NCBI GenBank assembly: GCA_020848545.1
Contig: JADLHZ010000056.1
Span: 1 to 64,000 of the forward strand
Direction: 5' to 3'
Length of the DNA: 64,000 nucleotides
DNA from: Deltaproteobacteria bacterium
GTDB lineage: Bacteria; Myxococcota; JADLHZ01
Both the position numbers and the translations under genes were made by a program. Under the pieces are notes generated by a model, which was not told the origin of the DNA, made no database searches, and saw only the letters and a program-made list of their open reading frames with translations. This document shows positions 2,438-63,129 of this stretch, one piece after another (position 1 is the first letter of the stretch; every line of letters starts with the position of its first letter).

Positions 2438-3679
2438 ATGAAACCAAAGAGGACCAGGGAGTGGAAGGAAGAAGAGAAAGAGGGACAGGACAAGATCGAA
2501 GCGGCGGAACAAGACACGAACGACAAGGGCAACGGCGGCAGCGAGAACAGCGACGTAGACGAGCGCGAACCAAGAACCGAGGGCGAAGAGAACGAAGAGC
2601 AGCAGCGATCGAATCCGAGCAGCAAACGACGAAGCCCAGGCGAGGCGGTGCGGCTGAGTCCGAGAGGCGCGTTCATCCTCTGCGAGCTCTACAAGCTGCG
2701 GCGCATGACGCTGCCGCAGCTCGCACGCCTTTGCGTCCTCAATCCGCTCGGCTACGCACCGATCGACATCGCGCGTCGACTCAAAGCGCTCGGCTATGTG
2801 CGGACGGAAGATCACTTTCGAGATGGCAAGAAGATCGTGCTCAGCCTCACCGAGCCCGGCCGGCGCTTTGCGGCCGATCGCCTCGGCCGCAGCACGCGCA
2901 TGCCGCTTCGCGATGACGCGGGCGGCGAGTTCACGCTGCACACGCTAAAGGGCGTCGATCTCTACCTTCGTCTTGTCTGCCCGGGCGCGAGAGATTGGCT
3001 CGCGGTGCGCAAGGCCGCCGCTCGCTTCGACTGGTACTCGTCGAACGAGGGGATCGACATCGACTGGCGGACCGGTTCACGCAGCACGCTGCAGCTCCGT
3101 CGGCTGATTCCCGACTGGCAGATCGAGACGCACGATCGGCGCATCTTCATCGAGATCGAGCGCTCGACGAAGTCGCTCGCCGCCGTGAAGGCGAAGGTCG
3201 AGCACTACTCGGGGGTGCTCGGGCCATTCGGCTCGCGGAGCTTGCACTTTCAATCGGCCTATTTCGAGAAGTACCGTGACCAGAAGCAGGCGATCGTCGC
3301 GTTCGTCTTCGACACGCCTGAGCGCACGGACAACGTTCAAGCCTTCGTGAAAGAAGCCCTCAAGCGCGAGCGCGTCTTCGTCGATCCTATCATGGGCACC
3401 GAGGAGGACGTCGTGCAGGAGCTGAGTCAGCTCCTCAAGCTCCACTTGCCAATCAATTACGTTCAAGGCCCGCAGGACCGGCTGATGATCGAGATGAGGA
3501 AATACATCGACCACATCAACCAGCACCCGGCGATCCCCGCGCTCGCGTGGCCGCCGAATTGGAGAGAGCTGATGAGCCAGATCTACCCGCGCGTCGAATG
3601 GCGAAAGCTGCGGAGCACTCTCGATGCTCGCGTCGCGAACGCGGTCGCCGCTCCGCAGAATCAAGGAGGGCCGCGATGA
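2438..3679 (+). CDS. Replication-relaxation family protein
   Basis: A 413-residue protein. The first about 65 residues are low-complexity, rich in Lys, Glu and Arg. Residues 70-150 look like a winged helix (FILCELYKLRRMTLPQLARL, RRLKALGYVR). A nuclease-like core follows, with 'LIPDWQIETHDRRIFIEIE', 'RSTKSLAAVKAKVEHYSGVL', close to the pattern of the replication-relaxation family (Pfam Replic_Relax). Members are found next to integrases on actinobacterial and proteobacterial mobile elements. A Shine-Dalgarno-like GAGGTAAGG precedes the ATG. Its stop overlaps the next start (ATGATGA), so it is translationally coupled to the excisionase gene. Its exact biochemical activity is not established. 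Confidence 0.75.
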   Translation: MKPKRTREWKEEEKEGQDKIEAAEQDTNDKGNGGSENSDVDEREPRTEGEENEEQQRSNPSSKRRSPGEAVRLSPRGAFILCELYKLRRMTLPQLARLCVLNPLGYAPIDIARRLKALGYVRTEDHFRDGKKIVLSLTEPGRRFAADRLGRSTRMPLRDDAGGEFTLHTLKGVDLYLRLVCPGARDWLAVRKAAARFDWYSSNEGIDIDWRTGSRSTLQLRRLIPDWQIETHDRRIFIEIERSTKSLAAVKAKVEHYSGVLGPFGSRSLHFQSAYFEKYRDQKQAIVAFVFDTPERTDNVQAFVKEALKRERVFVDPIMGTEEDVVQELSQLLKLHLPINYVQGPQDRLMIEMRKYIDHINQHPAIPALAWPPNWRELMSQIYPRVEWRKLRSTLDARVANAVAAPQNQGGPR

Positions 3680-3903
3680 TGACGAAGACCGATCTCGAAA
3701 CGATGTGGGACGTGAACGACGTGGCGAAGTTCCTGCGCGTCAGTCGCTCTTGGGTCTATCAGCGCGTCGAAGCCGGGCTACTCCCGCACCTACGCGTGGG
3801 CGGCCTGGTGCGCTTCGAGCCCCACACGCTGCGCGAATTCGTGCGGCGCGAGCGGCTGAGTGCATCCTGCGTAGTGAAACGCCTCGCCGAGAACAGGAGC
3901 TAG
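3676..3903 (+). CDS. Excisionase-like MerR-type helix-turn-helix protein
   Basis: A 75-residue protein with the DNA-binding domain found in excisionases: 'MWDVNDVAKFLRVSRSWVYQRV' (helix-turn-helix) followed by a wing 'LLPHLRVGGLVRFEP' and a C-terminal helix 'TLREFVRRE'. It probably binds the attachment site and directs the neighbouring recombinase towards excision, or regulates its expression. The start ATG at 3676 overlaps the upstream stop and has an AAGGAGGG ribosome site at 3663-3670. The recombinase gene starts 2 bp after its stop. Confidence 0.85.
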   Translation: MMTKTDLETMWDVNDVAKFLRVSRSWVYQRVEAGLLPHLRVGGLVRFEPHTLREFVRRERLSASCVVKRLAENRS

Positions 3904-3905
3904 CG

Positions 3906-5273
3906 ATGGCATCGGTCTACTTGAAGAATGGACGCTGGTTTCTGCGCTTCAAAGACGTGCACGGACGTTGGACGGCGAAGACCTGCGCGGCGCGGACGAA
4001 GACCGAAGCAAAGACGCTCGTCGCCGAGATCGAGCGGCAAGTGGAACAGGAGCGCATCGGGCTCAAGAAAGCCGGTGCACAGCTGACTGTGCGCGAGCTG
4101 TTCGTTTGGTGGCTGGAGACGTACCTCGCCGACAGGCCGTCGTTCGACACCGCGACCTCGCGCGTGCGCGTTCACATCTTCACATCGTCGCTCGCGGACA
4201 TGCGCGTCGCCGAGCTGCGGCCGGGGCACATCGAGACATTCTTGCAAGGGAAGACGAAGACGCTTTCGCCGAAGACGATCAATCACCTGCGCTCGTTCCT
4301 GCTCGTCGCGATCAACACGGCGAAGCGCGCCGGCAAGTTCGAGGGCGACAACCCAGTCACCGACGTGAAACCGCGTAAGGTCCCGCGACGGCTGTACGAC
4401 TATTTGAAGGTCGAAGAAGTCCCTCGCGTGCTCGAAGCACTGCACCCGAAGTATCAATCGCTCTTTGCGACCGCGATCTACACAGGCTTGCGCAAGGGGG
4501 AGCTGTTCGGGCTCCGAAAGCAGGACGTCGATCTGCCGCGTCGCTTGCTTTACGTGATGCGCTCGCACGACCGCGACACCACGAAGGGCGGACATGCCGA
4601 CGCGCTGCCGATATCGACCGAGCTGATCCCGTATCTGGAACACGCTTTCGCCGAGTCACCGGGCGAGCTCGTCTTCCCGGGCGAGGACGGGAAGATGCAA
4701 CGCAGGGACGCAAAGCTCGCGGCGATGCTGCGACGTGCGCTCGGTCGCGCAGGGATCGTCACCGGATACGAGCACCGGTGCAGGCGACCGAAGTGCGGAC
4801 ACAAGGAGCTGCACGAGGACCGAAAGCGACGACAGTGCCCGAACGATCACACCGCGCTCTGGCCGAAGGCGCTCGTGCGTAACATTCGTTTTCACGATCT
4901 ACGACACACGACCGCAAGCTTGCTGATGATGGCGGGCGCAAACCCCGCGTCGGTTCAGAAGATCATGCGCCACTCGAGCCCGGTGATCACGACGCAGATT
5001 TACGGGCACCTCGCGCCCGAGTACCTGCAAGCGGAGATCGATCGGTTGAAGCTTCTCCCGGAGAAGAAGCCGCTTGTTACCTATTTGCTACCGGCGCGGA
5101 AAAACGCCGCAGAACCGGCGGAAGACGATTCAGAAACCGAAGCGATGTCGGAGAGTTGTAGTGGCGCGCCCGACCCGATTCGAACAGGTGACCCTCGGGT
5201 TCGAAGCCCGATGCTCTATCCAGCTGAGCTACGGGCGCGCAGGGACAGGACGGAAGAGCGAGGCGGACGCTAG
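3906..5273 (+). CDS. Tyrosine recombinase (integrase) with zinc-ribbon-like insert
   Basis: A 455-residue phage-type integrase. An arm-binding strand region (residues 1-30, MASVYLKNGRWFLRF) is followed by a SAM-like core-binding domain (about 60-155) and the catalytic domain (165-385). Catalytic residues are visible: Arg196 (YTGLR), Lys227, His330-Asp-Leu-Arg333, His356 and Tyr366. Between Arg196 and the HxxR box lies a cysteine-rich insert, Cys292-x4-Cys297 and Cys311-x3-His315, resembling a zinc ribbon. The reading frame continues antisense through the tRNA-Arg gene (residues about 419-445), so the C-terminal tail is supplied by the chromosomal attachment site. The ATG at 3906 follows the excisionase stop directly. 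Confidence 0.93.
   Translation: MASVYLKNGRWFLRFKDVHGRWTAKTCAARTKTEAKTLVAEIERQVEQERIGLKKAGAQLTVRELFVWWLETYLADRPSFDTATSRVRVHIFTSSLADMRVAELRPGHIETFLQGKTKTLSPKTINHLRSFLLVAINTAKRAGKFEGDNPVTDVKPRKVPRRLYDYLKVEEVPRVLEALHPKYQSLFATAIYTGLRKGELFGLRKQDVDLPRRLLYVMRSHDRDTTKGGHADALPISTELIPYLEHAFAESPGELVFPGEDGKMQRRDAKLAAMLRRALGRAGIVTGYEHRCRRPKCGHKELHEDRKRRQCPNDHTALWPKALVRNIRFHDLRHTTASLLMMAGANPASVQKIMRHSSPVITTQIYGHLAPEYLQAEIDRLKLLPEKKPLVTYLLPARKNAAEPAEDDSETEAMSESCSGAPDPIRTGDPRVRSPMLYPAELRARRDRTEERGGR
5162..5238 (-). tRNA. tRNA-Arg (anticodon TCG)
   Basis: On the minus strand a cloverleaf can be drawn: acceptor stem GCGCCCG/CGGGCGC, a D arm with TAGCTCAGCTGGATAGAGC, an anticodon arm TCGGG-CTTCGAA-CCCGA with anticodon TCG, and a T arm around TTCGAAT. 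The discriminator base is G and the CCA end (5164-5162) is encoded. The tRNA reads CGA codons. The gene overlaps the antisense 3' end of the integrase gene and is the likely insertion site of the element to its left. Confidence 0.95.
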
Positions 5274-31302: not shown

Positions 31303-34300
31303 TTGGCAAGCGAGCTACCGCCCGGGACGCGCATCGAGAAGTTCCGAGTTGTCCGCACCCTCGGCAAAGGGCGCGCCGGCGAGACCTACCTCGCGCTCGA
31401 CACCGAGAAGGGTCGCCACGTCGCGCTGACCTATTACTCGCACGAGCGCTTCGGCAATAAGCAGATCTCGACGCCCTTCCTCGACGCCGTGCGCACGAAG
31501 TCGAGCTTCGAGCACCCGTCGATCGCCGCCGTCGTCGGCACCGGCGAGCACGCCGATCGCCCCTTCGTCGCGTTCGAGTACGTGGAAGGCGAGAGCCTGC
31601 GCGAGCGCATGAAGGCCGGGGGGCTCGTGGCGCTGCGCGAGCTCGTTCGCATCGGCGCCGGCGTCGCCGCCGGTCTCGCCGAGGCGCACAAGAAGAACGC
31701 GTTTCACCATGACCTCCGCCCCGAGAAGATCGCGCTCGGCCGCGACGGCTCGGTGAAGATCCTGGACCTCGGCATCACGCGCCTCGTCCAGCGCGTGCTC
31801 TCGTCGACGCCGACCGGCTCGTCGCTGAGCCAAGTGAGCGACTACCTCGCCCCGGAGCAAGTGCGCGGCGACGCTCCCGCCGGCGCGGCCGACGTCTGGG
31901 CGCTCGGCGTCATGCTCTATGAGCTCGCGACCGGCTTGCCGCCATACTCGTCGCGCGTCGCGCAGACCTTCATCGAGCAGGTCGGTAACCCGGACAAAGT
32001 GCGGCGCATGCCGACGACGCCGCGGGCGACGCCGGCCGAGATCTCGGACGTCATCTACAAGCTGCTCGACAAAGCGGCGGCGCAACGGCCGATCGCGCAA
32101 GAAGCGCACGACCTGTTGAGGCGAATGCTCGCGCTCGCCATCGTGCAAGACGCGCCGCCTTACTCGGGGCTCGCTCCGTACGTCGAAGCGCAGGCCGCGT
32201 ACTTCTGCGGCCGCGACGCTGAGATCGCCGCCTGCGTCGAGCGCCTGCAGCGAACCGCCCTGCTCGTCATCGCCGGCGCGTCGGGCACAGGCAAGACGTC
32301 GTTCGTGCAAGCCGGGCTCTTTACGCGCCTGCGGCCGGAGTACGAGCCGCTCGTCATAGTGCCCGGCAACACGCCGCTCTCCGCCCTGCAAGCGGCGTTT
32401 CCAGACGAAGTGAACTTACCAGAGCGGCTGCGCGCCGATCCGTCAGTGTTCGGCGCGGCCGTTGCCAGGCGCGCGGACAAAGCAGGCAAGCGCCTGGTGC
32501 TCTTCATCGATCGCTGCGAGCAGGTGGCCGGTCACGGTGACGCGAGCGTCTTCCTGCGCGCGGTCGCCGGCGTCGCCCGCGATCGGCAGAGCCCGGTTCG
32601 CGTGATCGTCGCGATGAACGAAGCGTTGCTCGATCGCCTGGCGCCCGAGCTCGACGCGCGGCGCGAGGTGTTCGTGCTGAAGGCACCCGACGCGCAAACG
32701 CTCGCCGAGATCGTGCAGCGACCGATCGCGACGAGCGGCCACAGCTTCGACGATGCCACGCTGCCAGGAACCATCGCGCAGGACGCCGCGACCGTCTCGC
32801 ACCCTTTGCTGCGCGTTTCGTTCTTGATGTCGCAGCTCTGGGCGAAGCGCGATGTGAACCAGAAGGTGCTCCAGCGGGCGGACTACGACGCGCTCGGCGG
32901 CGTGGCCCGCGTGCTCGAGCTCTACGCCGACTGGGCGCTGAGCGGCGCCACGCCGGAGCAACGCCGCATCGTCCACGACATCTGCCTGCGCCTCGTCTCG
33001 CGCGATGAAGTGGCGCAGTCGGTGCCGCGCGAAGCGCTGCTCGTCAACCTCGGCAAAGGCTGCGACGAAGTCCTCGATCGCCTGGTCGGTGTCGGCCTCA
33101 TCCTCAGCACGCAAGCGAGCGCCGACGCGCAGCCCGAGCTCGAGCTGATGCACGACGCGCTGATCGAAGCGTGGCCGCTGCTCCGCCAGTGGCTCGACGA
33201 ACGTGGCGCAGAGATCGGCTTTCTCAACGAGCTCGAGCAGGCGGCCGCGGCGTGGAAGGCGGACGGCGCCAAGACCTCCGCGACCTACAGCGGCGATGCG
33301 CTGCACCTGACTGCCGAGAAGCTGAAGTCGGTCACCTTGCCCGTGAGCAACGAGATCAACGGCTTCGTCGGCGCCGGCTTGAAGCGCGAAGCCAGAGAAC
33401 GCGCGACGCGAAAGACGATCGTCGCCGGCATTTGGATCGCGCTCGGCGTCGTCGCAGCCGGCACCACGGCGTACGGCCTGCGCCAGTACAAGACGGTGCG
33501 CGATCTCGAAGCCGTGCGCGCGCAGACGGCGCACGAACGCGCCGACGCCCAACGCGAAGACGCGCGCTCGGCGTTGACCGCGGCAAGGCTCGGCGGCGGC
33601 GGTGGCCTCGTGCAAGCGCGCGCGCAAACGCGGACCTCGCTCGAGGCCGAGGACAGCACGCTCGGGCGCACGCTCTGGGCCGAGCTCGACAAGTCACCGC
33701 TCGTTTGGCGCAAGAGCGTCGGCAGCGAAGCGAGCACGCCGGCGTTCGACGCCGAAGGCAAGCACGTCCAGTACGCCAAGGGCACCTCGCTCGTGACGCT
33801 CGACGGCACGACCTCCGAGGCGCAAGTGGCACGGCTCGCGCTCGACGCCCGCGTTCGCGCCGTCGCCGTCAGCAGCAAAGGCCTCGTCGCGATCGCCGAT
33901 CAAAAGGGCGCGGTCGCCATGCTGGACGCCGCCGGCAAGACGACGCCGGTCGGCCACGCGCAAGGGGCTGTCACCGCCCTCGCGTTTTCGCCCGAAGGCA
34001 CCACGCTCGTCGCCACAACCAAGAGTGGCGCTCATGTCTTCAGCGTCGGCGCGCCAGGAGAGCCGACGCCGCTGAAGGCGGGATCGCGCGCCGCGGCGTT
34101 TCGACCGAGCGGCGGCGAGCTCGCGCTCATCGGCGGCGACGATAACGTGCTCATCGTCGATGCGAAGTCGTTCGCGGAGCAAGCGAAGCTCGACGTCGAA
34201 GGCGTACGCGCGCTCGCGTACCGGCCGGAGGGCCTGCTCACGGGCGACAGCGACGGCCGCGTCAAGCTGTGGTCGGGCAAAGGCGAAGCGCGCGTGCTCA

Positions 34301-36165
34301 TCGCGTTGCAAAAGGAGATCGTCGGCCTAGCGGCGTCGGCTGACAAGCTCGCCACGCTGACGAGCGACGGCGTGCTCGCGCTGTGGGACGTGCAGAAAGC
34401 GCAGGGCGCAGCCGGCGGCGGCGCGCAGGCGAAGGCGGACCGCGGCGCCATCGCGGCGATCGCCTTCACGAGCAAAGACGGCGGCAAATTCGTCACCATC
34501 GGCGACGACGCCACGGCCGAGCTCTGGGATCTCACCTCCGCGAAGGTCGCGCGCACGCTCAGCGGGCACACGAAGCGCATCCAAGTGCTCGACGTGAGCG
34601 CCGACGGAAGCTTCATCGCTACTGGCGGCGCCGACGGCGCGACGCGCGTGTGGTCGGCGAGCGGCGACGACGTGAAGACGCTCGCCGGCGGAGGGGCCGT
34701 GCGCCGCGTGCGCATCGTCGACAAGAACACCGTCGTCACCGGCCACGCCGACGGCAACATCCGGGTGTGGAACGTGGCGAAGGGCGCTTCGCGCAACGCG
34801 GTCAGAGCCTACGGCGACATCGCGATGACGATCAGCCCCGACGGAAAGAAAGCGCTCACCGCCGGCAACAGCGGCCCGGCGCAAGTCTGGAACGTGAAGA
34901 ACGGCCGCGGCGAACGCACGATCTCGCCGAGCGGCGCGCGCTTCACCAGCGCGACCTACTCGCCGCAGAGCACCGAGATCGCGACGGGCGACAGCAAGGG
35001 CAAGGTGCAGCTCTGGCCGGCGAAGGGGCCAGGCAAAGCGATCGGCGCGCACGAAGGCGCCGTCAATCAGGTGATCTTCGACGCGAGCGGCAAGAAGCTG
35101 ATCTCAGCCGGCGCCGATCGCATGATCATCATTTGGGACATCGCCGGCGGTGACCCGGTGAAGATCGCTGACGTCGGCTTCGAGCCGAAGACCGTCTCGG
35201 TCAGCAAGGACGGGACGAAGCTCGTCGCCGGGGGCGCCGACGGTGCGCTAAAGGCGTTCACGCTGCCGCTCGCCGATCCGTATTGGCGAGCGCCGCTGCT
35301 CTTGAAAAAAGGGCCCGAGGTCGTCACGCACGCCGGCTTCGTGCCGCTGGCGCAAGCCGAGCAGGCGCCTGGTGACAAAGCGTGGCGCAAGTCGGTGTTC
35401 GAGCGCGCGCGCCTCGCTGGTGAATCACGCGACTCGGCGCTCGTGTGCTTCCTGAGCCGCGACAAGCTCGAGCTCTGGGACGCCGCCGGCGACAAGCTCG
35501 TGTCGCAGAACCCGGCGTCAAAGATCGAAGATCTGATCGTGACACCGAAGGGCTGCGTCACGCGCGCGGCCGGCCTCGTCAACTTCTATCCGAGCGAAGG
35601 CGAAGTGCGCACCGTGAGCGCCACCGCCACGGCGATCGGGCTCGACGGCGACGCGTTCGTCGTCGCGGAGCAAGGCTCGGTCACGGCGTTTTCGGCCGAC
35701 GGACAAAAAGGCGCGAGCGTACCGGTGCCGGCCGGCGTCATCGCCGTCGGCAGGAGCGGCGAGATCGTCGTCGTGGGCTTCGACGACGGCGGCCTCGAAG
35801 CGCACGCCGGCACCGCGACGCTCGTCCTCGGCGCCGGGCCGACGGCGCGCATCACGCGGATCATCCCCGGCCCGCCGGGCACGATCGCCGCGTCCGACGC
35901 CGATGGCTTCGTCGGACTATGGGATGCGTCGAGCGGTCGCTTGCTCGATCAGCGCCGGCTCCCCGCACGCCCGACGCAGCTCGTCTTCGCCGGTAGCGGC
36001 ATCTACGCGGCGGACGAGCGCGGCGGCTTTGCCAGCCTCGACCTCTCGATCCTCACACTCGACTACTGCGCGCTGTTGAAGACGGTGTGGAGCGCGGTGC
36101 CGGTCGTCTGGTCGTCCGGTCGCGCGGTGCTGACGCCGCCGCCCACCGATCATCGGTGTAGATAA
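31303..36165 (+). CDS. Pseudokinase - STAND-type NTPase - TM - WD40 protein
   Basis: A 1620-residue protein. Residues 10-285 are a Hanks-type kinase fold, but key residues are lost: the beta-3 Lys is Thr43 (VALTYY), and HRDLKPxN reads 'HHDLRPEK' (Asp137 kept, Lys to Arg, Asn to Lys); DLG replaces DFG at 155-157. It is probably a pseudokinase. An NTPase domain follows, with Walker A 'GASGTGKTS' (325-333), then a transmembrane helix (about 705-725). At least a dozen WD40-like repeats (about 790-1590) would lie outside the inner membrane. The start is TTG with a weak AAAGG site. It overlaps rsmG by 16 bp at the 3' ends. Confidence 0.9.
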   Translation: MASELPPGTRIEKFRVVRTLGKGRAGETYLALDTEKGRHVALTYYSHERFGNKQISTPFLDAVRTKSSFEHPSIAAVVGTGEHADRPFVAFEYVEGESLRERMKAGGLVALRELVRIGAGVAAGLAEAHKKNAFHHDLRPEKIALGRDGSVKILDLGITRLVQRVLSSTPTGSSLSQVSDYLAPEQVRGDAPAGAADVWALGVMLYELATGLPPYSSRVAQTFIEQVGNPDKVRRMPTTPRATPAEISDVIYKLLDKAAAQRPIAQEAHDLLRRMLALAIVQDAPPYSGLAPYVEAQAAYFCGRDAEIAACVERLQRTALLVIAGASGTGKTSFVQAGLFTRLRPEYEPLVIVPGNTPLSALQAAFPDEVNLPERLRADPSVFGAAVARRADKAGKRLVLFIDRCEQVAGHGDASVFLRAVAGVARDRQSPVRVIVAMNEALLDRLAPELDARREVFVLKAPDAQTLAEIVQRPIATSGHSFDDATLPGTIAQDAATVSHPLLRVSFLMSQLWAKRDVNQKVLQRADYDALGGVARVLELYADWALSGATPEQRRIVHDICLRLVSRDEVAQSVPREALLVNLGKGCDEVLDRLVGVGLILSTQASADAQPELELMHDALIEAWPLLRQWLDERGAEIGFLNELEQAAAAWKADGAKTSATYSGDALHLTAEKLKSVTLPVSNEINGFVGAGLKREARERATRKTIVAGIWIALGVVAAGTTAYGLRQYKTVRDLEAVRAQTAHERADAQREDARSALTAARLGGGGGLVQARAQTRTSLEAEDSTLGRTLWAELDKSPLVWRKSVGSEASTPAFDAEGKHVQYAKGTSLVTLDGTTSEAQVARLALDARVRAVAVSSKGLVAIADQKGAVAMLDAAGKTTPVGHAQGAVTALAFSPEGTTLVATTKSGAHVFSVGAPGEPTPLKAGSRAAAFRPSGGELALIGGDDNVLIVDAKSFAEQAKLDVEGVRALAYRPEGLLTGDSDGRVKLWSGKGEARVLIALQKEIVGLAASADKLATLTSDGVLALWDVQKAQGAAGGGAQAKADRGAIAAIAFTSKDGGKFVTIGDDATAELWDLTSAKVARTLSGHTKRIQVLDVSADGSFIATGGADGATRVWSASGDDVKTLAGGGAVRRVRIVDKNTVVTGHADGNIRVWNVAKGASRNAVRAYGDIAMTISPDGKKALTAGNSGPAQVWNVKNGRGERTISPSGARFTSATYSPQSTEIATGDSKGKVQLWPAKGPGKAIGAHEGAVNQVIFDASGKKLISAGADRMIIIWDIAGGDPVKIADVGFEPKTVSVSKDGTKLVAGGADGALKAFTLPLADPYWRAPLLLKKGPEVVTHAGFVPLAQAEQAPGDKAWRKSVFERARLAGESRDSALVCFLSRDKLELWDAAGDKLVSQNPASKIEDLIVTPKGCVTRAAGLVNFYPSEGEVRTVSATATAIGLDGDAFVVAEQGSVTAFSADGQKGASVPVPAGVIAVGRSGEIVVVGFDDGGLEAHAGTATLVLGAGPTARITRIIPGPPGTIAASDADGFVGLWDASSGRLLDQRRLPARPTQLVFAGSGIYAADERGGFASLDLSILTLDYCALLKTVWSAVPVVWSSGRAVLTPPPTDHRCR

Positions 36166-41750: not shown

Positions 41751-44700
41751 GTGCAAGAAGGCGCTGGCGCTCCGACCGCAAACGAACCGCCCACGCTGAT
41801 CGCGTCACGGTACGAGCTGCGACGGCCGCTCGGACGCGGCGGTCAGAGCGACGTCTACTTGGCCTACGATCGCGAAGCGCTGCGCGAGGTGGCGCTGAAG
41901 ATCCTGCGGGTGTCGAGCGAGACGCGGGCGTACTTGTTGAAGCAAGAATTCTCGGCGCTCGCCGGCCTCGATCATCCGAACATCGTCCGCGTCTTCGAAT
42001 ACGGGAGCCTGCAGACGCCGGTCGACGCCGAGGCCGTCACATACTACACGATGCAGCTCGTCTCGGGCGCAGACATCGTCACGGCCTGCGCGGGCAAGGA
42101 CATGGAGGCCGTGGCCGGGCTCGCGGCGCAGGCGCTGTCGGCGCTCGCGCATGTCCACGCGCACGATCTCTTGCACCTCGACATCAAGCCCGAGAACCTG
42201 CTCGTCTCCGGAGAGGGCGACGCCGCCAAGCTCACCCTCGTCGACTTCGGGCTCGCGCGCCGGGTGCGCGAAGCGTCGAGCGGCTACGCCCGCGGAACGA
42301 TGGCCTACATCGCGCCGGAGATGCTCGCCGGACAGAACATCGATCTGCGCGTCGATCTCTACGCGCTCGGCCGCGTGCTCTACGACGCGCTCGCGCCAGG
42401 GGTCGTGCTCGACAACGTGGGCGCCCCACTGCCGTGGCTCGAGACGCTGCGGCCGGACTTGCCGCAGCCGTTCTGCCATTGGATCGATCGCCTCGCCTCC
42501 GCCGACATCGTGCTGCGCTTCGCCCGCGCGCAGGCGGCGCTGCAGGAGCTCTCGACGATCTTGCCCATGCGCGACGTGGCGCCGTTCGCCGCGAACGCTT
42601 CCTTGCTCGTCGCGCCGCTCATCGGCCGCCAGAGCGAGCTCACCCACGCGCGCCGCCTCGTCCGCACCGCGATCGCGAAGAACAAGCTCGCGTGCATCAT
42701 GGTCACCGCCGCAGCGGGGCACGGCAAGTCGCGCTTCCTCTCGACGCTGCAGGGTCTGTGTCAGCGCGATCAGCTGCGCACCGAGCTGAGCGATCGGCGG
42801 ACAGCAGAAGATCGTCTGCGCCCCGAGGGTCATCGCTTGGAAGACATCGAGGAGCGCGCGCGCCAGCTTGCCTCCTCGTTCGAGACGCGGCGAGTGTGGC
42901 TCATCGATGACGCCGACAAGCTGAGCGACGTGGGCGTCGACGTGCTCTCGCGCATCCTGAACCACGCGACGGCGCTCGGTGGCGTGCTGGTCGTATCGGT
43001 GACCACGGCTTCGGCGACCTCGCGCTGGCAGCTCCTCGAGATCGAGAACCAAGCGCGCCTCACCTTCGTCGATCTCGGGCCGCTCTCACGCCGCGATCTG
43101 CAGCTGCTCGCCGACGCGCTGCTCGGCAATCCGCTCCCTGACGGATGGATCTCCGAGCTGCACGCAGCGTCGGCGGGCAACCCGTTGTGGGCGCAAGAGA
43201 TCCTGCGCAGCTGGGTGAGCGAGGGCGCGCTCGCGTTCAAGGACGGCGACTTTCGACCGCAAGGCGAGCAGCCGACGCCGATCGATCGATCGCGCCTCTC
43301 GGGCCTCATGCAGGCGCGCCTCGCCAACATCGACGAGGATCTCTGGCCGCCGATCTTCGCGGCCGCGATCTTGGGCCGCGAGCTCACCCCGGAGCGGATC
43401 ACGCGGCTCTCCGCGCCGTGGATCGCGCGCAACGACAATCCGGCCGAGAAGGTCGTGGCGATGGCGCTGACCGCGATGGTGCAACATCACATCGTCGATC
43501 ACAAGGGCGACGCCTTTCGCTTCGTCCACGATGAGATCATGGGCGCCCTTCGCCAGCTCATCCCCGAGCCGACGCGCCGGCGCTTGCACACGGAAGCGGC
43601 GCAGTTGTTTCGCGCCAAGAAGGACCTGGACACGCGCGACTTTCACTTGGTGCGCGGCGACGATCCGATCATCGCCGCCGACGCCGGTCGCGCCGCCGGT
43701 GATCGCGCGCGCGACGCCTTCGCTCACCGCCGCGCGATGCGCCGCTACCGCCGCGGCTTCAAGCGCATCGAGGCCTTCGACAAGACGCGCGCCGCCGTGC
43801 TCGCGCTGTGCATCGCCGAGTGCGCCACGCAGATCGACGAGCACCAAGACGCGCTGGCGTGGTTCGAGCGCGCGCGCACCCTCGGCGGAGACGAACGTGA
43901 GGTCATCCTGCGCAGCGAGCTCGGCATCGCCGAAGCCCAGCGCAAGCGCTGCGAGTACAAGGAAGCGCTCGACCACGCGACGCGGGCGCTGAAGCTCGTC
44001 CTCGCCGGCACCGTCGAGCAAGCGAACGCGCTGCGCCTCGTCGCCCGCATCGAGCAGCACGCCGGAGCCTTCGATCGAGCGCTCGAGAACTTCGAGCAAG
44101 CGCTGCGCCTCTACGAGACGATCAACGACGGCGAAGGCCACGCGCGCGTGCTCTTGGATCTCGCGAACTTGTTCCGCGAGCGCGGGCGCATCGTCGAGGC
44201 GGAGCACCACGCCGCGCGCGCCGAGGCGGAAGCGACGAAGCTCGGCAACGACGGCCTGCGCGCGCGTGCCTATCAACAGCTCGGACACGTGCTCTGCTTG
44301 AAGGGCGACTCGCTGCTCGCCCTCTCGCACCTGACCGAGTCGCGCCAGCTCGCGCACGTGCTCGGCGATCGCCGGACCGAAGGCGCCGCGCAGCGCGACA
44401 TCGCGACGTTACGCCGGCAGCAAGGCCGCTTCGCCGAGGCCAAGGAGCTGCTCGAACGCGCGTCGCGCCTGTTCTTCTTGACTGGCGCCCGCAATTTGAA
44501 CGCCGACTGTTTGCACCAACTCGGCGCCATCGCCACGCGCATGGGCGACTATCCGAGCGCGATCGAAGCGCTGAACGAAGGGCTGACCATCCGCCGTGAT
44601 CTCAAAGACATCGCGGGTCGCAGCCACGTCCACGTCGCGCTCGCGCGGGTGCACGTGGACGTGGGGCTACACCGTGAAGGCTTGCACTACGGCGAGCTCG

Positions 44701-45269
44701 CGCTGCGTGAGGCGCGCAAGTCCGGCGACGCGCTCCTCGGCATCGTCGCCGAAGAGGCGATCCTCGCCGCCGAGATCGCGTTCGGCACCGGCCGCCCGAA
44801 GGGCCTCGTCGGCTTGGCGCAGCGCGCGCGGGAGCTCGGGATCGCTCGGGTGGAGGTGTCGATCCTGTCGCGGCTGATCGAGACCGAGCCGAGGCACTCG
44901 CACGTCGAACGCCTGCTCGAGCTCGGCACTGCGGCGGACAACCATGAGGCGCGGACGCACGGGGCCTGGGGCGCGGGGCTCCTCCACGCCGCCGCGCAAG
45001 AGGCTGAGCTGGCGACAGCGGACCTCACCTCCGCGTTGACGCTGGCCGAGAACGCCGGGCAAACCGAGCTGGCCGCGCGCATCAAGTCGGATCTCGGCGC
45101 CGTGTTCTTGAAGCTCGGCAAGCGGGCGCAAGCGGCGAGCTTGCTGACACAGGCGATGATGCTCTTGCGCGAGCACTTCGCGGCGCTCGGCCCGAAGCGC
45201 AACACCGGCTACCTGATCGTCGGCTGGCGCAAGCTCGCACGCGATCGTTTTCGACAGGCGACCGAGTGA
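41751..45269 (+). CDS. Ser/Thr kinase - AAA-type ATPase - TPR signalling protein
   Basis: A 1172-residue protein. The kinase domain (about 20-275) is complete: Gly loop 'LGRGGQSDVYLA', Lys50 (VALKIL), 'HLDIKPENLL' with Asp144, Lys146 and Asn149, and 'VDFGLA' with Asp165. An ATPase domain (about 285-600) has a P-loop 'AAAGHGKSRF' and Walker B 'RRVWLIDDADKL'. About twelve TPR-like helical pairs fill the rest (about 640-1150). Similar proteins are common in myxobacteria as large cytoplasmic signal integrators. The start is GTG. A GTGA overlap couples it to the PEGA gene. Confidence 0.93.
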   Translation: MQEGAGAPTANEPPTLIASRYELRRPLGRGGQSDVYLAYDREALREVALKILRVSSETRAYLLKQEFSALAGLDHPNIVRVFEYGSLQTPVDAEAVTYYTMQLVSGADIVTACAGKDMEAVAGLAAQALSALAHVHAHDLLHLDIKPENLLVSGEGDAAKLTLVDFGLARRVREASSGYARGTMAYIAPEMLAGQNIDLRVDLYALGRVLYDALAPGVVLDNVGAPLPWLETLRPDLPQPFCHWIDRLASADIVLRFARAQAALQELSTILPMRDVAPFAANASLLVAPLIGRQSELTHARRLVRTAIAKNKLACIMVTAAAGHGKSRFLSTLQGLCQRDQLRTELSDRRTAEDRLRPEGHRLEDIEERARQLASSFETRRVWLIDDADKLSDVGVDVLSRILNHATALGGVLVVSVTTASATSRWQLLEIENQARLTFVDLGPLSRRDLQLLADALLGNPLPDGWISELHAASAGNPLWAQEILRSWVSEGALAFKDGDFRPQGEQPTPIDRSRLSGLMQARLANIDEDLWPPIFAAAILGRELTPERITRLSAPWIARNDNPAEKVVAMALTAMVQHHIVDHKGDAFRFVHDEIMGALRQLIPEPTRRRLHTEAAQLFRAKKDLDTRDFHLVRGDDPIIAADAGRAAGDRARDAFAHRRAMRRYRRGFKRIEAFDKTRAAVLALCIAECATQIDEHQDALAWFERARTLGGDEREVILRSELGIAEAQRKRCEYKEALDHATRALKLVLAGTVEQANALRLVARIEQHAGAFDRALENFEQALRLYETINDGEGHARVLLDLANLFRERGRIVEAEHHAARAEAEATKLGNDGLRARAYQQLGHVLCLKGDSLLALSHLTESRQLAHVLGDRRTEGAAQRDIATLRRQQGRFAEAKELLERASRLFFLTGARNLNADCLHQLGAIATRMGDYPSAIEALNEGLTIRRDLKDIAGRSHVHVALARVHVDVGLHREGLHYGELALREARKSGDALLGIVAEEAILAAEIAFGTGRPKGLVGLAQRARELGIARVEVSILSRLIETEPRHSHVERLLELGTAADNHEARTHGAWGAGLLHAAAQEAELATADLTSALTLAENAGQTELAARIKSDLGAVFLKLGKRAQAASLLTQAMMLLREHFAALGPKRNTGYLIVGWRKLARDRFRQATE

Positions 45270-56588: not shown

Positions 56589-57047
56589 TCAGCTTCGACC
56601 CCTTTGACGGATCGCCTCGTAAACGGTGATCGCCACCGACGTCGACAGATTCAACGAGCGCACATGCTCGCTGAACATCGGGATCTTGAAGCAACGATCT
56701 TTGTAGGCCTCACGAACCGCCGGCGGCAGCCCGAGCCGCTCGCGCCCGAACACGAGCACGACGTCCTCCGGAAACGTGCACTCGTACAGAGACCGCGCGC
56801 CGTAGGTTTCCAAAGCGAACGCCGTTCCGAGCGGAGTCGCCGCGTCCATGAACGCTTCGTAGCTGTCGTGGATCACCGGCTTCACGTGCTCCCAGTAATC
56901 GAGCCCCGCGCGCCGCACCGCTTGCTCATTCAGCGAGAAACCGAAGGGCCGCACGAGGTGCAGCTGCGCGCCGGCGGCCAGGCACGTGCGGCCCACGTTG
57001 CCCGTGTTCCATGGGATCTCGGGCTCGATGAGGGCGACGTGAATCAC
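56589..57047 (-). CDS. trmL: tRNA (cytidine/uridine-34-2'-O)-methyltransferase TrmL
   Basis: A 152-residue SPOUT methyltransferase. Motifs are 'EIPWNTGNVGRTCLAAGAQL', 'DVVLVFGRERLGLP' and 'RSLNLSTSVAITVYEAIRQ', which form the trefoil knot and SAM site. It methylates the wobble nucleotide of certain leucine tRNAs. The start is GTG at 57047, 10 bp after the stop of the CHAT gene, so they may share a transcript. Confidence 0.95.
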   Translation of the reverse strand: MIHVALIEPEIPWNTGNVGRTCLAAGAQLHLVRPFGFSLNEQAVRRAGLDYWEHVKPVIHDSYEAFMDAATPLGTAFALETYGARSLYECTFPEDVVLVFGRERLGLPPAVREAYKDRCFKIPMFSEHVRSLNLSTSVAITVYEAIRQRGRS

Positions 57048-57057
57048 CGCGAAAGCC

Positions 57058-60000
57058 TCACTTCTTGAAGCGCAGCGGATAGCCGATCTCGATCGACGCG
57101 GTCGCGTCCCACGTGCCGCGCAAGCGCCCGACTCCGGCCTCGGCGAGATCCCACGTGAACGCGCGCGCGACGCGGCCGTAGAAGGACAGCCACTCGACCG
57201 GCGTCACGCGCAGATACGCCGAGAGCAAGTCGTTCTGAATGAAGCGGAAGAGCTCGCTGTTCTGCCCCTGCGTGAAGTTCCGCTTTTGATAGGTGAAGAA
57301 CAAGGTCATGTACTTCGACACCTGCGACTGCGCGTGCAGCGTCATCGACGACGAGACGCCGTAGCCGCCGCTCTCGAAGGTGACGCCGACGCCGGCGTAG
57401 CTCGCGTAGCCCACGCTGAAGTCGCCCCAGAAGTTGTGCGCGCGGGCGCTGCGCGTGAGCTGGGTGAGGAAGGTGGCCTTCGTGATGTCGCTCGTCGTCG
57501 GATCGCCGGAGAAGAAGTGCAGGCGTTGCACTTCGTAAAAATTGTCGAAGTAGCCCGGCATGTATTGGCTGCCGAGGTTTCGGTACTCCACGCGCGCGCG
57601 GAGCTCGAGGCCGCCGGTCTTCGGAATCACCGATGAGAGATCGAGGCCCGCGCTGACACCGTTTCCGAGCGCGACGATCTGATCGAACTCCAAGTACGTG
57701 CGCGCGCGGAAGAACGAGTACGACACCGGCGTGATCGAAAAGTCGCCGCCCAAGATGTGGATGCCGCGCACGTCGGCCTCGGGATAGAACTGCAGCGAGG
57801 TCTTCACCGTGAAGCCGTCGTCGTTGAGCTTCAACGCGGTCGGCGCCGAGAAGTCGCCGGTCCACAAGACGCCGAGCTGCATCGACTCGAGCTGCGGGAC
57901 GCCGACCCTGGCGAGCGCGAACGGCCGCAGCCCGGCGTAGAGGCCTACCAACGTCGACTGAAAGCCGAAGTCGGTGATGATCGCCTGCATCTCGCCAGCG
58001 CGGCCGCCGTAGGTGACGTTGCCGCCGACGCGCCAGATGTCGGCGAACCAGCCGTTCGAATAGGCGCGCATCGCCCCGCCGCTCGCGAGATCGAAGGCGG
58101 CGATGCGGCCGAGGCGCGCGTCGAGCACGCCGCCGTCGGCGTGGTAATTCAGCTCGAGCGCGTGCGCGATCTTCAAGTAGTCGCGCCACTCGTCCCAGTC
58201 GCGGCGGCGGATGGTGCCGCCGGGCGCACCGCTCTGCGGATCGTTGATCGTGAAGTTGATAGGCGCGCCGAGCGTGAGCTGCAGGTGGCCCTTCTCGTCG
58301 CCGCCCCCGAACGCGATGAACGGCGCTGCGGTGAAGTAATGGCCCTCGGCGACGCCGTGGTAGCCGAACGACGCACCGACCGCGCTCATGCGACCGAAGT
58401 CCCAGGTCTCGCTGCGCAGCGCGACGGGGCCGCCGTAGTCGACAGGTGGCTCCCACTTGATCTTCGGCTTCGGCTCCGGCGGCGGCTCGTATGGCGCGGG
58501 CGGCTCATACGCAGGCGGCGGCGTGTACGGCGGCGGGACATAGACGGGCGGCGGCGGCTTGTTCGCCTCGGCTTCCTTGACGAGATCGCTGAGCACCGTC
58601 GTGATGCTCAACGTCGGCTTCGTCTCCATCGACGCCGGTGCGTTCACGGCCACCGCCATGCGTTGCTGCGGCTGCGCGCCGGCGCCCATCAGCGTGAACG
58701 CCGCCCAGTAGAACGGGTTCTCGTAGCCCTTCGCCCGCACGTCTTTACGCGCGTTCATCAGCGCGAGCTGCGCGTCTTGGCCGTCCTTCATGTACTTGAA
58801 GAACTGGCTCGCGAGCAGCGTCGTCGAGTCCTCGCTCACTTCCCACAGGCTCATCAACACGCGCTTCGCACCGGCGTACTCGAACGCGCGGCCGAGGCCC
58901 ATGACGCCTTCGCCGCTCACGTTTCTGCCGACGCCGGTCTGGCACGCGGTCAGCGCGACGACGTCGGCGTTCAGCTTCAGGGCCATCACTTCGCTCGCGG
59001 TCAAGAAGCCGTCGTCGCCGGCGGGATTGCCAACGAGGCTCAAGACCAACGCCGGCTCGCGCACGTAGGGCAAGGTGTCGTCGAGGATGCCGTGCGTCGC
59101 GAAGGTGAGGAAGCGATAGCCCGAGAGATCTTGCTGCCTCACCGTCGCTTCTTTGGCGTTCTTGCCGACGAGCAGCGTGGCGTCGGCGCCGAAGAAGCTC
59201 TTCAACTTGTCGGCGAGCAGCGACGTCTTGTCCAGGCGAGGGAAGACATCGGGCTCGGCCGCCGCCGCACCCTGCGCCTGTTTTTGCGCCTCCGTCCGCG
59301 CGATCGATCCGGCGACGCCCATCTTCTTCCACTCGTTGGCGGCGAGCGCGGTCTCGGCCGCGACGGCGCCGGTCGCGCGCTTGTCCTTCGCCGAGAACAC
59401 CGGATCGGCGAGCGCCAGGAGCTTCTTGCTGCTCACCGGCGGATCCAGCGCGCGGGCGATCGACAGCGCTGTCGCCGACTGCGCGTAGCCGAGCGGCCGC
59501 TTCTCGCCGAGGTAGGTCACGCCGAGCGGGAACGGGCCGAACTGGTTCTGCCCCATCTGCTCGGTCTTTTGCTCGACCACCAACGCATCGAAGGGCAAGA
59601 CAGCGAGAAACTCGTCCGGCACGATCATCGTGCGCGTCGTCTCTGGGATGCCATCGAAGACGCCGTCGAAGAGCGCCTTGTACAGCGCGAGCGCTTTGTT
59701 CGGGTTGAACTTCGCGAGGTCATCGGCGCGACTCACCGCCGTGAACGCCGCGCGGATGTCGTCGACCTGCGTGCGCAGATCTTCGCGCGTCACGTCCTTG
59801 ACGATCACGCGGCTCTTGCCGTCATGGACGACGAACACGAAGAGCTGCGCCTCGGTCACCTCGAAGGCGACGAGCGCTTCGGTGGTCGCGAGCCAGACCT
59901 CCGGCGGCGTCAGCGGGCTCGGGTAGCGCAGCGACGCGTAGTCCGGAAAGCGCCCGCGCAGCTCGGCGGCGAAGCGCTCGCGATCCGCGCGCAGCACTTC

Positions 60001-61683
60001 GAGCGCGCGCTCTTTCAGGGCGTACTCGCCCGTCGCCTTGCGCTTGAACGCGTCCTCGAGCTCGCGCACGGTGCGCGTGATGTCGATGTTCAGCTTCTCC
60101 TCGCGCGCGCGCAGATCCGGCGGCAACGACAGCGAGAGCGCGCTGCGCCCCGCCGCGATCGCCTCGGCGAGCCGGCGCGCCTTGATGTTCTCGGACGCCT
60201 TGAACGCGTCGTCGATGCGCCCCTGCTTCACGTACACGCGCACGAGCGACTCGTAGGCCTGCGTGCGCGCGAGCCCGACGACCTCGCCGCTGAAGAACGC
60301 CGCGCGATCGCCGGGAGAGAGCGTGTCGCGTTGGTTCTCCATCAGCGCCACGGCCTTGCGCAGTGCTTTGTCCGCGTCGTCGAGCTCGTTCAAGCCTTCG
60401 CAAGCGAGGCCGAGGCCGATGTGGGTACCGACCAGCTTGTCTGCCTCGCGCGAATTCAGCGCCCGCTCGACGCCGAGCTTGAACTGCTCTTTGGCGCCCG
60501 CGAAGTTCTTCTGCTTCAAGTAGACGACGCCGAGCAGGTCGGGCCGGTTGTTGCGCTGGAAGATGTCGATCGCTTTTCTGGTCGACTCCGGCCCGTGCTG
60601 CGGATGCGTGATGTAGCTCAGCAGGAACTCGCCGTAGGTGAGCTCGATGTCCGTCGTCGGAATGTCGTTCTTCTCGGCCAGGTTCTTCACCGAGCCGATG
60701 ATGTCGAACGCCTTCTTCATGTTGCCGAGCTTCTTGTGGACGATGATCAGCTTGCGCGCGATCTCGAAGAGCTCGTCTTTGCGCGTGCCCGAGATCATCA
60801 GCTTCGCTTCGATGTCGACGGCGTCTTGATAGCGCTTCAACGCCGTTTCGTAGTCGCCGGCGAAGTCGTAGTAGCTGGCGAGCGCAGCGAGGATCTCGGC
60901 CTTGTTCGCCTTGTACGAACGATAGGTGTAGCGCTTCCCCGCCTCGGGATCCTGGTCCATCGTCTTGAAGTGCGTGTCGAGGTTCGGCTCGGGCGGCTCC
61001 GGCGTCTCTTTCAGCAGCTGCTCGGCCACCGCCAGCGCGTCCTTCAGCATCGCCAGCGACTTCGGAAAGTCGCCGACGTCTTGCAGGAACTTCGCGAGCG
61101 AGAGCATCACCTGCGGCACGGTCTCTTTGTCGAGCTTGTCCTTCTCCCTCAGGATCGCTTCGCACGTCGTGATGGCGCCCGCGTAGTCGCCGGCGGCTTG
61201 CAGCGCGTAGGCCCGCTGATGCCACGCGCCTAGCTCGCCCTTGCGATCGTTCTTGCTGCGGTACATCGCCTCGAGCTTCGTGAAGTACGGCAGCGCGTCC
61301 TGCGGCCGCTTCACCTTGACGAGCAAGACGCCGACGAACTCGGTGAACGTCGGCTCGAGCTGCGGCTTCAGCGCCGGTTCGCGATCGAGGCGGCGCAGCG
61401 CTTCTTGCGCGTAGCCGAGCGCGGTCGCGTGATCGCCCGTGAGCGACCAGGCGATGACGCCGAGCTGCGCCGCCAACAGCCACAGGTTATTGGCGCGCGC
61501 CTCGTCGGCGTAGCGCATGCCGTCTTTGATGTATTCCTTCGACGCGCGGTAGCGGAAGATCTCCTGCATCTTCAACGCCGATATGATCTTACGCGCGGCC
61601 TCGCCCTCCGCATTTGCACCGGCGGCGGGGTTCGAGGTCAAAAGCGCTGACAATAATATGAGAGCGATGACGCGCGACTTCAT
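57058..61683 (-). CDS. Exported TPR - CHAT protease - beta-barrel fusion protein
   Basis: A 1541-residue protein. A signal peptide (MKSRVIALILLSALLTSNPA) is followed by TPR-type helical repeats (about 40-510), a coiled region, and a CHAT domain (about 590-1005) with the catalytic dyad His864 ('FATHGILDD') and Cys914 ('LTACQTGVG'). A Pro-rich linker (about 1042-1075, 'PPPPVYVPPPYTPPPAYEPP') leads to about 460 residues with beta-barrel features ending in 'IEIGYPLRFKK'. CHAT is a caspase-like clan-CD protease normally cytoplasmic. Here the protease should face the periplasm or surface, anchored by the barrel. The frame stays open to 63084 but that part is antisense to xseA; the ATG at 61683 starts the signal peptide. 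Confidence 0.9.
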   Translation of the reverse strand: MKSRVIALILLSALLTSNPAAGANAEGEAARKIISALKMQEIFRYRASKEYIKDGMRYADEARANNLWLLAAQLGVIAWSLTGDHATALGYAQEALRRLDREPALKPQLEPTFTEFVGVLLVKVKRPQDALPYFTKLEAMYRSKNDRKGELGAWHQRAYALQAAGDYAGAITTCEAILREKDKLDKETVPQVMLSLAKFLQDVGDFPKSLAMLKDALAVAEQLLKETPEPPEPNLDTHFKTMDQDPEAGKRYTYRSYKANKAEILAALASYYDFAGDYETALKRYQDAVDIEAKLMISGTRKDELFEIARKLIIVHKKLGNMKKAFDIIGSVKNLAEKNDIPTTDIELTYGEFLLSYITHPQHGPESTRKAIDIFQRNNRPDLLGVVYLKQKNFAGAKEQFKLGVERALNSREADKLVGTHIGLGLACEGLNELDDADKALRKAVALMENQRDTLSPGDRAAFFSGEVVGLARTQAYESLVRVYVKQGRIDDAFKASENIKARRLAEAIAAGRSALSLSLPPDLRAREEKLNIDITRTVRELEDAFKRKATGEYALKERALEVLRADRERFAAELRGRFPDYASLRYPSPLTPPEVWLATTEALVAFEVTEAQLFVFVVHDGKSRVIVKDVTREDLRTQVDDIRAAFTAVSRADDLAKFNPNKALALYKALFDGVFDGIPETTRTMIVPDEFLAVLPFDALVVEQKTEQMGQNQFGPFPLGVTYLGEKRPLGYAQSATALSIARALDPPVSSKKLLALADPVFSAKDKRATGAVAAETALAANEWKKMGVAGSIARTEAQKQAQGAAAAEPDVFPRLDKTSLLADKLKSFFGADATLLVGKNAKEATVRQQDLSGYRFLTFATHGILDDTLPYVREPALVLSLVGNPAGDDGFLTASEVMALKLNADVVALTACQTGVGRNVSGEGVMGLGRAFEYAGAKRVLMSLWEVSEDSTTLLASQFFKYMKDGQDAQLALMNARKDVRAKGYENPFYWAAFTLMGAGAQPQQRMAVAVNAPASMETKPTLSITTVLSDLVKEAEANKPPPPVYVPPPYTPPPAYEPPAPYEPPPEPKPKIKWEPPVDYGGPVALRSETWDFGRMSAVGASFGYHGVAEGHYFTAAPFIAFGGGDEKGHLQLTLGAPINFTINDPQSGAPGGTIRRRDWDEWRDYLKIAHALELNYHADGGVLDARLGRIAAFDLASGGAMRAYSNGWFADIWRVGGNVTYGGRAGEMQAIITDFGFQSTLVGLYAGLRPFALARVGVPQLESMQLGVLWTGDFSAPTALKLNDDGFTVKTSLQFYPEADVRGIHILGGDFSITPVSYSFFRARTYLEFDQIVALGNGVSAGLDLSSVIPKTGGLELRARVEYRNLGSQYMPGYFDNFYEVQRLHFFSGDPTTSDITKATFLTQLTRSARAHNFWGDFSVGYASYAGVGVTFESGGYGVSSSMTLHAQSQVSKYMTLFFTYQKRNFTQGQNSELFRFIQNDLLSAYLRVTPVEWLSFYGRVARAFTWDLAEAGVGRLRGTWDATASIEIGYPLRFKK

Positions 61684-61755: not shown

Positions 61756-63129
61756 GTGACGCCGAACCCGAACTTCGATCTCTTCGCGCGGCCGCAGGAA
61801 CCGGAGCGGCCGCTGCACGTGTCCGAGCTGAACGACCGCGCCGCGGCGCTGCTCGAAGGCAAGTTCGCGCGCGTGCTCGTCGAAGGCGAAGTCTCCGGCT
61901 TCCTCGCGCATCGCTCCGGGCATTGGTACTTCACGCTCAAAGACAGCCACGGCCAGGTCTCGTGCTGCTGCTTCAAGAACAGCCAGAAGGGGGCGCAGGC
62001 GCCAAGAGACGGCGACAAGGTCGTCGTGCGCGGCAAGCTGACGATCTACGCGCAGCGCGGAAGCTATCAGCTCGTCGTCGATCAAGTGCGGCCCGCGGGC
62101 GCCGGCGTCCTCCTGCAGAAGCTCGAGGCGCTGAAGCAGAAGCTGGCCGAAGAAGGGCTGCTCGACAGCGAAAGAAAGCGCGAGCTGCCGCGGATCATCC
62201 ACAACGTCGGCATCGTCACGAGCCCGGACGGCGCCGCGGTGAAGGACTTCATCCGCGTCGCCAGGGAGCGCGATCCGACGCTGCGCGTGCTCGTCTTGCC
62301 AACGCCGGTGCAAGGCGCGGGGGCGGCGAACGAGATCGCACGGATGATCCGCTACGCCTCGACGCGCGCTTCCGAGCTGCGCCTCGACGTGCTCGTCATC
62401 GCGCGCGGCGGCGGATCGATCGAGGACCTCTGGGCGTTCAACGAAGAGATCGTCGCGCGCGCGATCGCCGACTGTCGCATCCCGACGGTCAGCGCCATCG
62501 GCCACGAGGTCGACGTGACGATCGCCGATCTCGTCGCCGACGTGCGCGCGCCGACGCCGACGGCCGCCGCCCAGCTGACCGCGGCCGACATGCGCGCGGT
62601 GCGGGCGGCGTTCACCGATCAAGGTCGCCGGCTCGTGCGGCTCATCCGCGGCGACGTGCAGGCCCGGCTCGCCCGGCTGCAACGCGCGCGGCTGACGTTG
62701 CAAGATCCGATGCGGCGCTTGCAGCGCTTGCGGCAGCGGATCGATCTGCTCGCCGAGGATCTCGAGCGATCTTTGCGTGGACGACTCGCGACCGGTGAGC
62801 AGCGGCTGCAACGGGCGCGGGCAATCATCGAAGCGCACCATCCGCAAAAGACGATCGCGTCGAGCGCGCGGCGGCTGGCGACGCTCGAACGGCGGATGCA
62901 GCAAGCGATGGCCTCGCGGCTGCACGATCGCAAAGCGAAGCTCGGGCGGGTGGCCGCGCGGCTCGATGCGCTGTCGCCACTCGGCGTGCTCTCGCGCGGT
63001 TATGCGATCGCCTTGAACGAAGGAATAGCCGTGCGCGCTCCCGGCGACGCGCCGGTGGGGACGAAGCTGCAGATCCGTTTGCACGAAGGTGAGATCGCGG
63101 CGCGCGTGATAGATCAGAAGGAGAAGTGA
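61756..63129 (+). CDS. xseA: Exodeoxyribonuclease VII large subunit
   Basis: A 457-residue XseA. The OB-fold ('HVSELNDRAAALLEGKFARV', 'EVSGFLAHRSGHWYFTLKD') is followed by the catalytic domain ('VGIVTSPDGAAVKDFIRVAR', 'VLVIARGGGSIEDLWAFNEE', 'VSAIGHEVDVTIADLVAD'), a long coiled coil and the 'LGVLSRGYAIAL' segment. With XseB it degrades single-stranded DNA. The start is GTG at 61756. It overlaps xseB by 4 bp. Confidence 0.97.
   Translation: MTPNPNFDLFARPQEPERPLHVSELNDRAAALLEGKFARVLVEGEVSGFLAHRSGHWYFTLKDSHGQVSCCCFKNSQKGAQAPRDGDKVVVRGKLTIYAQRGSYQLVVDQVRPAGAGVLLQKLEALKQKLAEEGLLDSERKRELPRIIHNVGIVTSPDGAAVKDFIRVARERDPTLRVLVLPTPVQGAGAANEIARMIRYASTRASELRLDVLVIARGGGSIEDLWAFNEEIVARAIADCRIPTVSAIGHEVDVTIADLVADVRAPTPTAAAQLTAADMRAVRAAFTDQGRRLVRLIRGDVQARLARLQRARLTLQDPMRRLQRLRQRIDLLAEDLERSLRGRLATGEQRLQRARAIIEAHHPQKTIASSARRLATLERRMQQAMASRLHDRKAKLGRVAARLDALSPLGVLSRGYAIALNEGIAVRAPGDAPVGTKLQIRLHEGEIAARVIDQKEK

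Follow-up and report, generated by a model that had tools for sequence, protein, structure and literature searches.

CHAT proteases are mainly discussed as cytoplasmic defence enzymes, and the TPR-CHAT protein of Craspase, which is bound to Cas7-11/gRAMP and activated by RNA, works in the cytoplasm. In that protein (Csx29), a TPR array is followed by a CHAT domain with a His/Cys dyad, and target binding opens the catalytic pocket and brings the dyad residues H585 and C627 together (PMC9729208). The polysaccharide export systems PgaA and BcsC contain a periplasmic TPR array and an outer-membrane barrel in one chain (PMC9384988, PMC11379886). The NCBIfam family NF047543 (“cytoplasmic membrane protein ImpL63”) takes its name from Leptospira ImpL63, which is reported as an inner-membrane marker and is poorly surface-biotinylated (PMC2698987, PMC2780356). 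The gene analysed here lies in a window of 64,000 nucleotides (the whole stretch of DNA studied; contig JADLHZ010000056.1 of a Myxococcota genome, assembly GCA_020848545.1). Like Csx29, its product has TPRs followed by a CHAT dyad, whereas Csx29 has no barrel. It shares with PgaA and BcsC the combination of a TPR array with a predicted barrel, but those proteins have no CHAT domain and no sequence relation between the barrels was detected. The C-terminal domain is homologous by sequence to the ImpL63/NF047543 proteins, which stand alone elsewhere and are annotated as cytoplasmic-membrane proteins, whereas the family profile reads as a barrel.

Architecture of the fusion gene

The fusion protein was encoded by a single unbroken frame of 1541 codons on the minus strand, from the ATG at 61683 to the stop at 57058, and the signal peptide, TPR array, CHAT domain, proline-rich linker and C-terminal domain described in the first-pass annotation were indeed found in this one chain (Table 1). 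The open frame extends upstream of the ATG (2008-2023 codons), where the extra part overlaps xseA on the plus strand. A longer upstream start is unnecessary: the extension lies over xseA, and the ATG at 61683 already yields a textbook signal peptide. By inspection, the N terminus consisted of MKSRVIALILLSALLTSNPAAGANA followed by EG, a signal peptide with its cleavage site, which agrees with the export proposed earlier. Several TPR models scored above their cut-offs in the Pfam search between residues 150 and 450, and a low-confidence AlphaFold2 model of the array from the single sequence contained regular helix pairs with a pLDDT of about 50-80 over most of its length. The caspase-like CHAT domain, which belongs to the clan CD cysteine proteases, scored 170 bits against PF12770, compared with a cut-off of 24 bits. 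His864 in the motif FATHG and Cys914 in LTACQTG occupied the canonical CHAT positions in the alignment with the relatives, so that the dyad is intact, as had been claimed. No other CHAT protein of the 8.0 Mb genome scored above the cut-off.

The downstream methyltransferase gene is probably cotranscribed with the fusion gene, which does not imply a functional link. Membership in Craspase or type III-E systems was rejected, since a signal peptide is present and the immediate neighbours are xseA and the SpoU-family methyltransferase gene, with no Cas7-11.

Table 1. Positions of the fusion gene, its parts, its neighbours and related barrel genes (window coordinates unless another contig is named)
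Feature	Position	Strand	Remarks
TPR-CHAT-barrel fusion gene	57058..61683	-	1541 aa; stop codon 57058-57060
Sec signal peptide, residues 1-24	61612..61683	-	cleavage about between ANA and EG; judged by inspection
TPR-type helical array, residues ~27-500	60184..61605	-	Pfam TPR matches about 150-450
CHAT protease domain, residues 666-1001	58681..59688	-	PF12770 E=1e-49
Catalytic His864	59092..59094	-	alignment with CHAT relatives
Catalytic Cys914	58942..58944	-	alignment with CHAT relatives
Proline-rich linker, residues ~1042-1082	58438..58560	-	
ImpL63-like domain, predicted beta-barrel, residues ~1085-1541	57061..58431	-	C-terminal end IEIGYPLRFKK
SpoU-family RNA methyltransferase gene	56589..57047	-	10 bp downstream of fusion gene
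Exonuclease VII large subunit gene xseA	61756..63129	+	divergent neighbour, housekeeping; from translated sequence
Stand-alone barrel paralogue, same genome	L036:6631-8430 = G000:C98:92954-94420	+	own Pro-rich N-terminal stretch
NlpC/P60-barrel fusion	L094:1936-4125	+	
NlpC/P60-barrel fusion	L095:931-3126	-	
NlpC/P60-barrel fusion	L097:571-2730	-	
NlpC/P60-barrel fusion	L098:583-2769	-	

Exported TPR-CHAT relatives in the same phylum

The first-pass annotation regarded bacterial CHAT proteases as cytoplasmic, and this did not hold for the relatives of the fusion protein. Within the phylum, the 19 TPR-CHAT proteins most similar to the fusion protein were taken and their N termini read by eye. 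An apparent signal peptide or lipobox was present in 18 of them, and the exception (L051) met the end of its contig. Examples of these N termini are ...CLLFSAC in L049, ...LLFAAC in L062, MRTSILWLVTLLALPAVAEE in L066 and MRLFTGWMLAVFLCCAAESRAS in L053. L049, a predicted lipoprotein, resembled the fusion protein in its signal sequence, TPR array and CHAT dyad, with about 33% identity over residues 490-1002. A protein of 2664 residues (L114:3758-11749, minus strand) was found by Pfam and sequence to contain a lipobox, PD40 propeller repeats (9e-24), TPRs and a C-terminal CHAT domain (1.1e-66). Giant frames of about 2500-3000 aa with a C-terminal CHAT domain also occurred in L112, L113 and L116, with similar frames in several genomes of the phylum. 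The signal sequences of the relatives and these giant lipobox-PD40-TPR-CHAT proteins indicate that export is common among the CHAT proteins of the phylum. Literature searches returned no description of exported TPR-CHAT proteins. Together with its relatives, the fusion protein suggests that one phylum has a large set of envelope CHAT proteases that has hardly been described.

The catalytic Cys was kept in all 19 relatives and the His in 18. In the remaining protein (L060, G011:C154), a Glu was aligned at the His position while the Cys was kept, and its CHAT domain is possibly inactive judging from this substitution. In each of the 19 relatives, the CHAT domain was located at the extreme C terminus, followed by only 1-79 residues, and the proteins were lipid-tethered or free with no barrel. 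The 540 extra residues of the fusion protein are thus an addition to a chain that otherwise ends at CHAT.

The C-terminal domain and its family

The C-terminal domain (457 residues, close to the 460 or so estimated earlier) had no Pfam match, and its profile had no match in the PDB even at E=10. All 22 aligned homologues of the domain matched NF047543 (best 6.5e-60). The fusion protein itself scored 42 bits (4e-11), far below the equivalog cut-off of 1000 bits, and by this comparison its domain is a homologue of ImpL63 and not ImpL63 itself. The family profile matched the window with an E-value of 2.5e-124, a value that includes the contribution of the window sequence to the profile alignment. 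Profile searches found the family in 144 of the 195 same-phylum genomes, usually as a stand-alone protein about 450-750 residues long that has a signal peptide and frequently also a proline- or charge-rich N-terminal stretch; in several of these homologues, the proline-rich segment was similar to the linker of the fusion protein. Outside the phylum, none of 14 well-known control genomes matched NF047543, and neither the viral contigs searched with the barrel alignment nor the plasmids contained a relative, while a single-sequence search of other phyla, which has low sensitivity, found one on a Cloacimonadota contig.

A hydrophobicity alternation of period two together with a C-terminal Phe is the signature of an outer-membrane barrel assembled by BAM. 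The column-averaged hydropathy of the family profile (428 columns) showed an autocorrelation of -0.215 at lag 1 and +0.177 at lag 2, with a null standard deviation of 0.05 and 0 of 2000 shuffles reaching these values; the TPR and CHAT regions lacked this alternation. Phe was the C-terminal residue in 15/22 homologues, and the fusion protein ended with Phe followed by KK. The domain contained 14 amphipathic stretches against 8.8 expected, a number reached by 27 of 1000 shuffles. An AlphaFold model from the single sequence without an alignment had a mean pLDDT of 34, so the reading of the domain as a BAM-assembled barrel, which supports the barrel-like domain of the first-pass annotation, derives from the family statistics and not from a structure model. 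The alternation and the C-terminal Phe of the relatives also make the name of NF047543 questionable, and “cytoplasmic membrane protein” may be misleading for annotation. The behaviour reported for Leptospira ImpL63 in fractionation and surface biotinylation speaks against an outer-membrane location (PMC2698987, PMC2780356); outer-membrane proteins that are insoluble in detergent or bound to peptidoglycan could likewise fractionate as an inner-membrane marker.

The neighbourhoods of 20 stand-alone barrel genes contained no CHAT gene and thus gave no support for a functional link between the two families. The conserved neighbours of the barrel gene were acyl-CoA carboxylase genes, a small protein and a protein of roughly 300 aa, from which no function was evident.

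Origin and placement of the fusion protein

Among the barrel matches listed for the 195 same-phylum genomes, which are related to the source genome no more closely than at the level of the phylum, the CHAT-barrel fusion was found only in this genome. Other phyla were scanned for the fusion by a low-sensitivity single-sequence search. Two other barrel-containing frames among the matches listed were longer than 1000 codons, and both were rejected as a second fusion. The long frame of G019:C23 was due to upstream non-coding read-through, and in G049:C31 masked N upstream of the barrel limits the judgement. The closest barrel to that of the fusion protein was the stand-alone paralogue in the same genome (8e-67), followed by a protein at 1e-25, which indicates that the barrel half belongs to its own lineage and is of native origin. 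The fusion probably arose when a complete exported TPR-CHAT protein gained, at its C terminus, the mature portion of a barrel protein, a paralogue of which is still present in the genome. What is new is the architecture, seen in one genome with a draft assembly; the two halves are exported proteins ordinary for the phylum, only their covalent joining is unusual, and they do not form a new class.

In four genomes, an NlpC/P60 domain was found N-terminal to an ImpL63-like barrel in one chain (E 6e-25 to 1e-28). These proteins resembled the fusion protein in having a signal sequence, an N-terminal cysteine hydrolase, a linker and the same barrel, but in place of a TPR-CHAT module they carry an enzyme from a family of peptidoglycan hydrolases. 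NlpC/P60 enzymes typically cleave peptidoglycan. Since an enzyme of this family occupies the same position, the N-terminal side of the barrel should face the periplasm. The ImpL63-like barrel, which has no Pfam entry, is modular, with different enzymes at its N terminus, and this makes its orientation and role testable. PgaA and BcsC indicate that a TPR array and an outer-membrane barrel in one chain are a workable design.

The fusion suggests that the protease is tethered on the inner side of the outer membrane. We consider it probable that the protein is an outer-membrane-anchored periplasmic TPR-CHAT cysteine protease made from two exported proteins. The whole chain would be exported by Sec, the C-terminal domain would be inserted into the outer membrane by BAM, and the proline-rich linker would serve as a tether from which the TPR-CHAT module reaches into the periplasm beside the membrane. 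By analogy with the TPR-CHAT protein of Craspase, the TPR array may bind to a partner or respond to the partner's state, and thereby free the active site formed by His864 and Cys914. The likeliest control would be a trigger received through the TPR array, either from a partner protein or from the barrel, and the activated CHAT domain is predicted to cut a periplasmic or outer-membrane-associated protein. In a more speculative form, which we regard as doubtful, the chain would be a complete outer-membrane “sense-and-cut” device, in which a ligand or stress sensed by the barrel at the outer membrane makes it switch on the tethered separase-like CHAT domain on the periplasmic side; if true, this would be a caspase-type signalling route at the bacterial envelope.

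The first-pass annotation had left the protease in the periplasm or at the surface, and of these two places the periplasm was favoured by the NlpC/P60 fusions of four genomes and by the mostly passenger-free barrel. Exposure at the surface would require the barrel to act as an autotransporter-type translocator that passes the TPR-CHAT part to the outside. The order of signal peptide, passenger, linker and C-terminal barrel resembles type V secretion, and other exported TPR-CHAT proteins exist. However, the barrel is found mostly without a passenger, the one further enzyme seen as a passenger comes from a family of peptidoglycan hydrolases, which need the periplasm, and no Pfam autotransporter, POTRA or Omp85 domain was found in the fusion protein, which makes this arrangement unlikely. 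It is similarly improbable that the TPR-CHAT part is without catalytic activity and serves as a scaffold or sensor controlling the barrel, such as its gating or assembly, in which case proteolysis would not be its function. PgaA-type proteins do use the TPR array as a periplasmic scaffold (PMC9384988), but the dyad and the surrounding motifs of the fusion protein are intact, although the Glu at the His position of L060 shows that the dyad can be lost.

The occurrence in a single genome, and the proneness of proline-rich repeats to recombination and misassembly, could also point to an accident of assembly or recombination in a draft genome, in which two genes were joined at a proline-rich coding sequence. 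This explanation is very unlikely: the join is in frame within a contig and the 1541 codons contain no stop, the barrel half is nearest to a paralogue of the same genome and hence not foreign contamination, and the NlpC/P60 fusions show that the barrel family accepts N-terminal modules. The simplest reading of the fusion remains a protease that is anchored in the outer membrane and would act in the periplasm.

Other multidomain proteins were observed elsewhere in the window. A single chain at 31303-36165 (plus strand) combined a protein kinase, an nSTAND1 NTPase and a WD40 propeller, and a serine/threonine kinase at 41751-45269 (plus strand) carried a TPR array at its C terminus. The region at 2438-5273 (plus strand) encoded a replication-relaxation-type protein and a phage-type integrase, and the 3' end of the integrase gene overlapped a tRNA-Arg gene on the opposite strand (5162-5238, minus strand); this region may mark the border of an integrative element.
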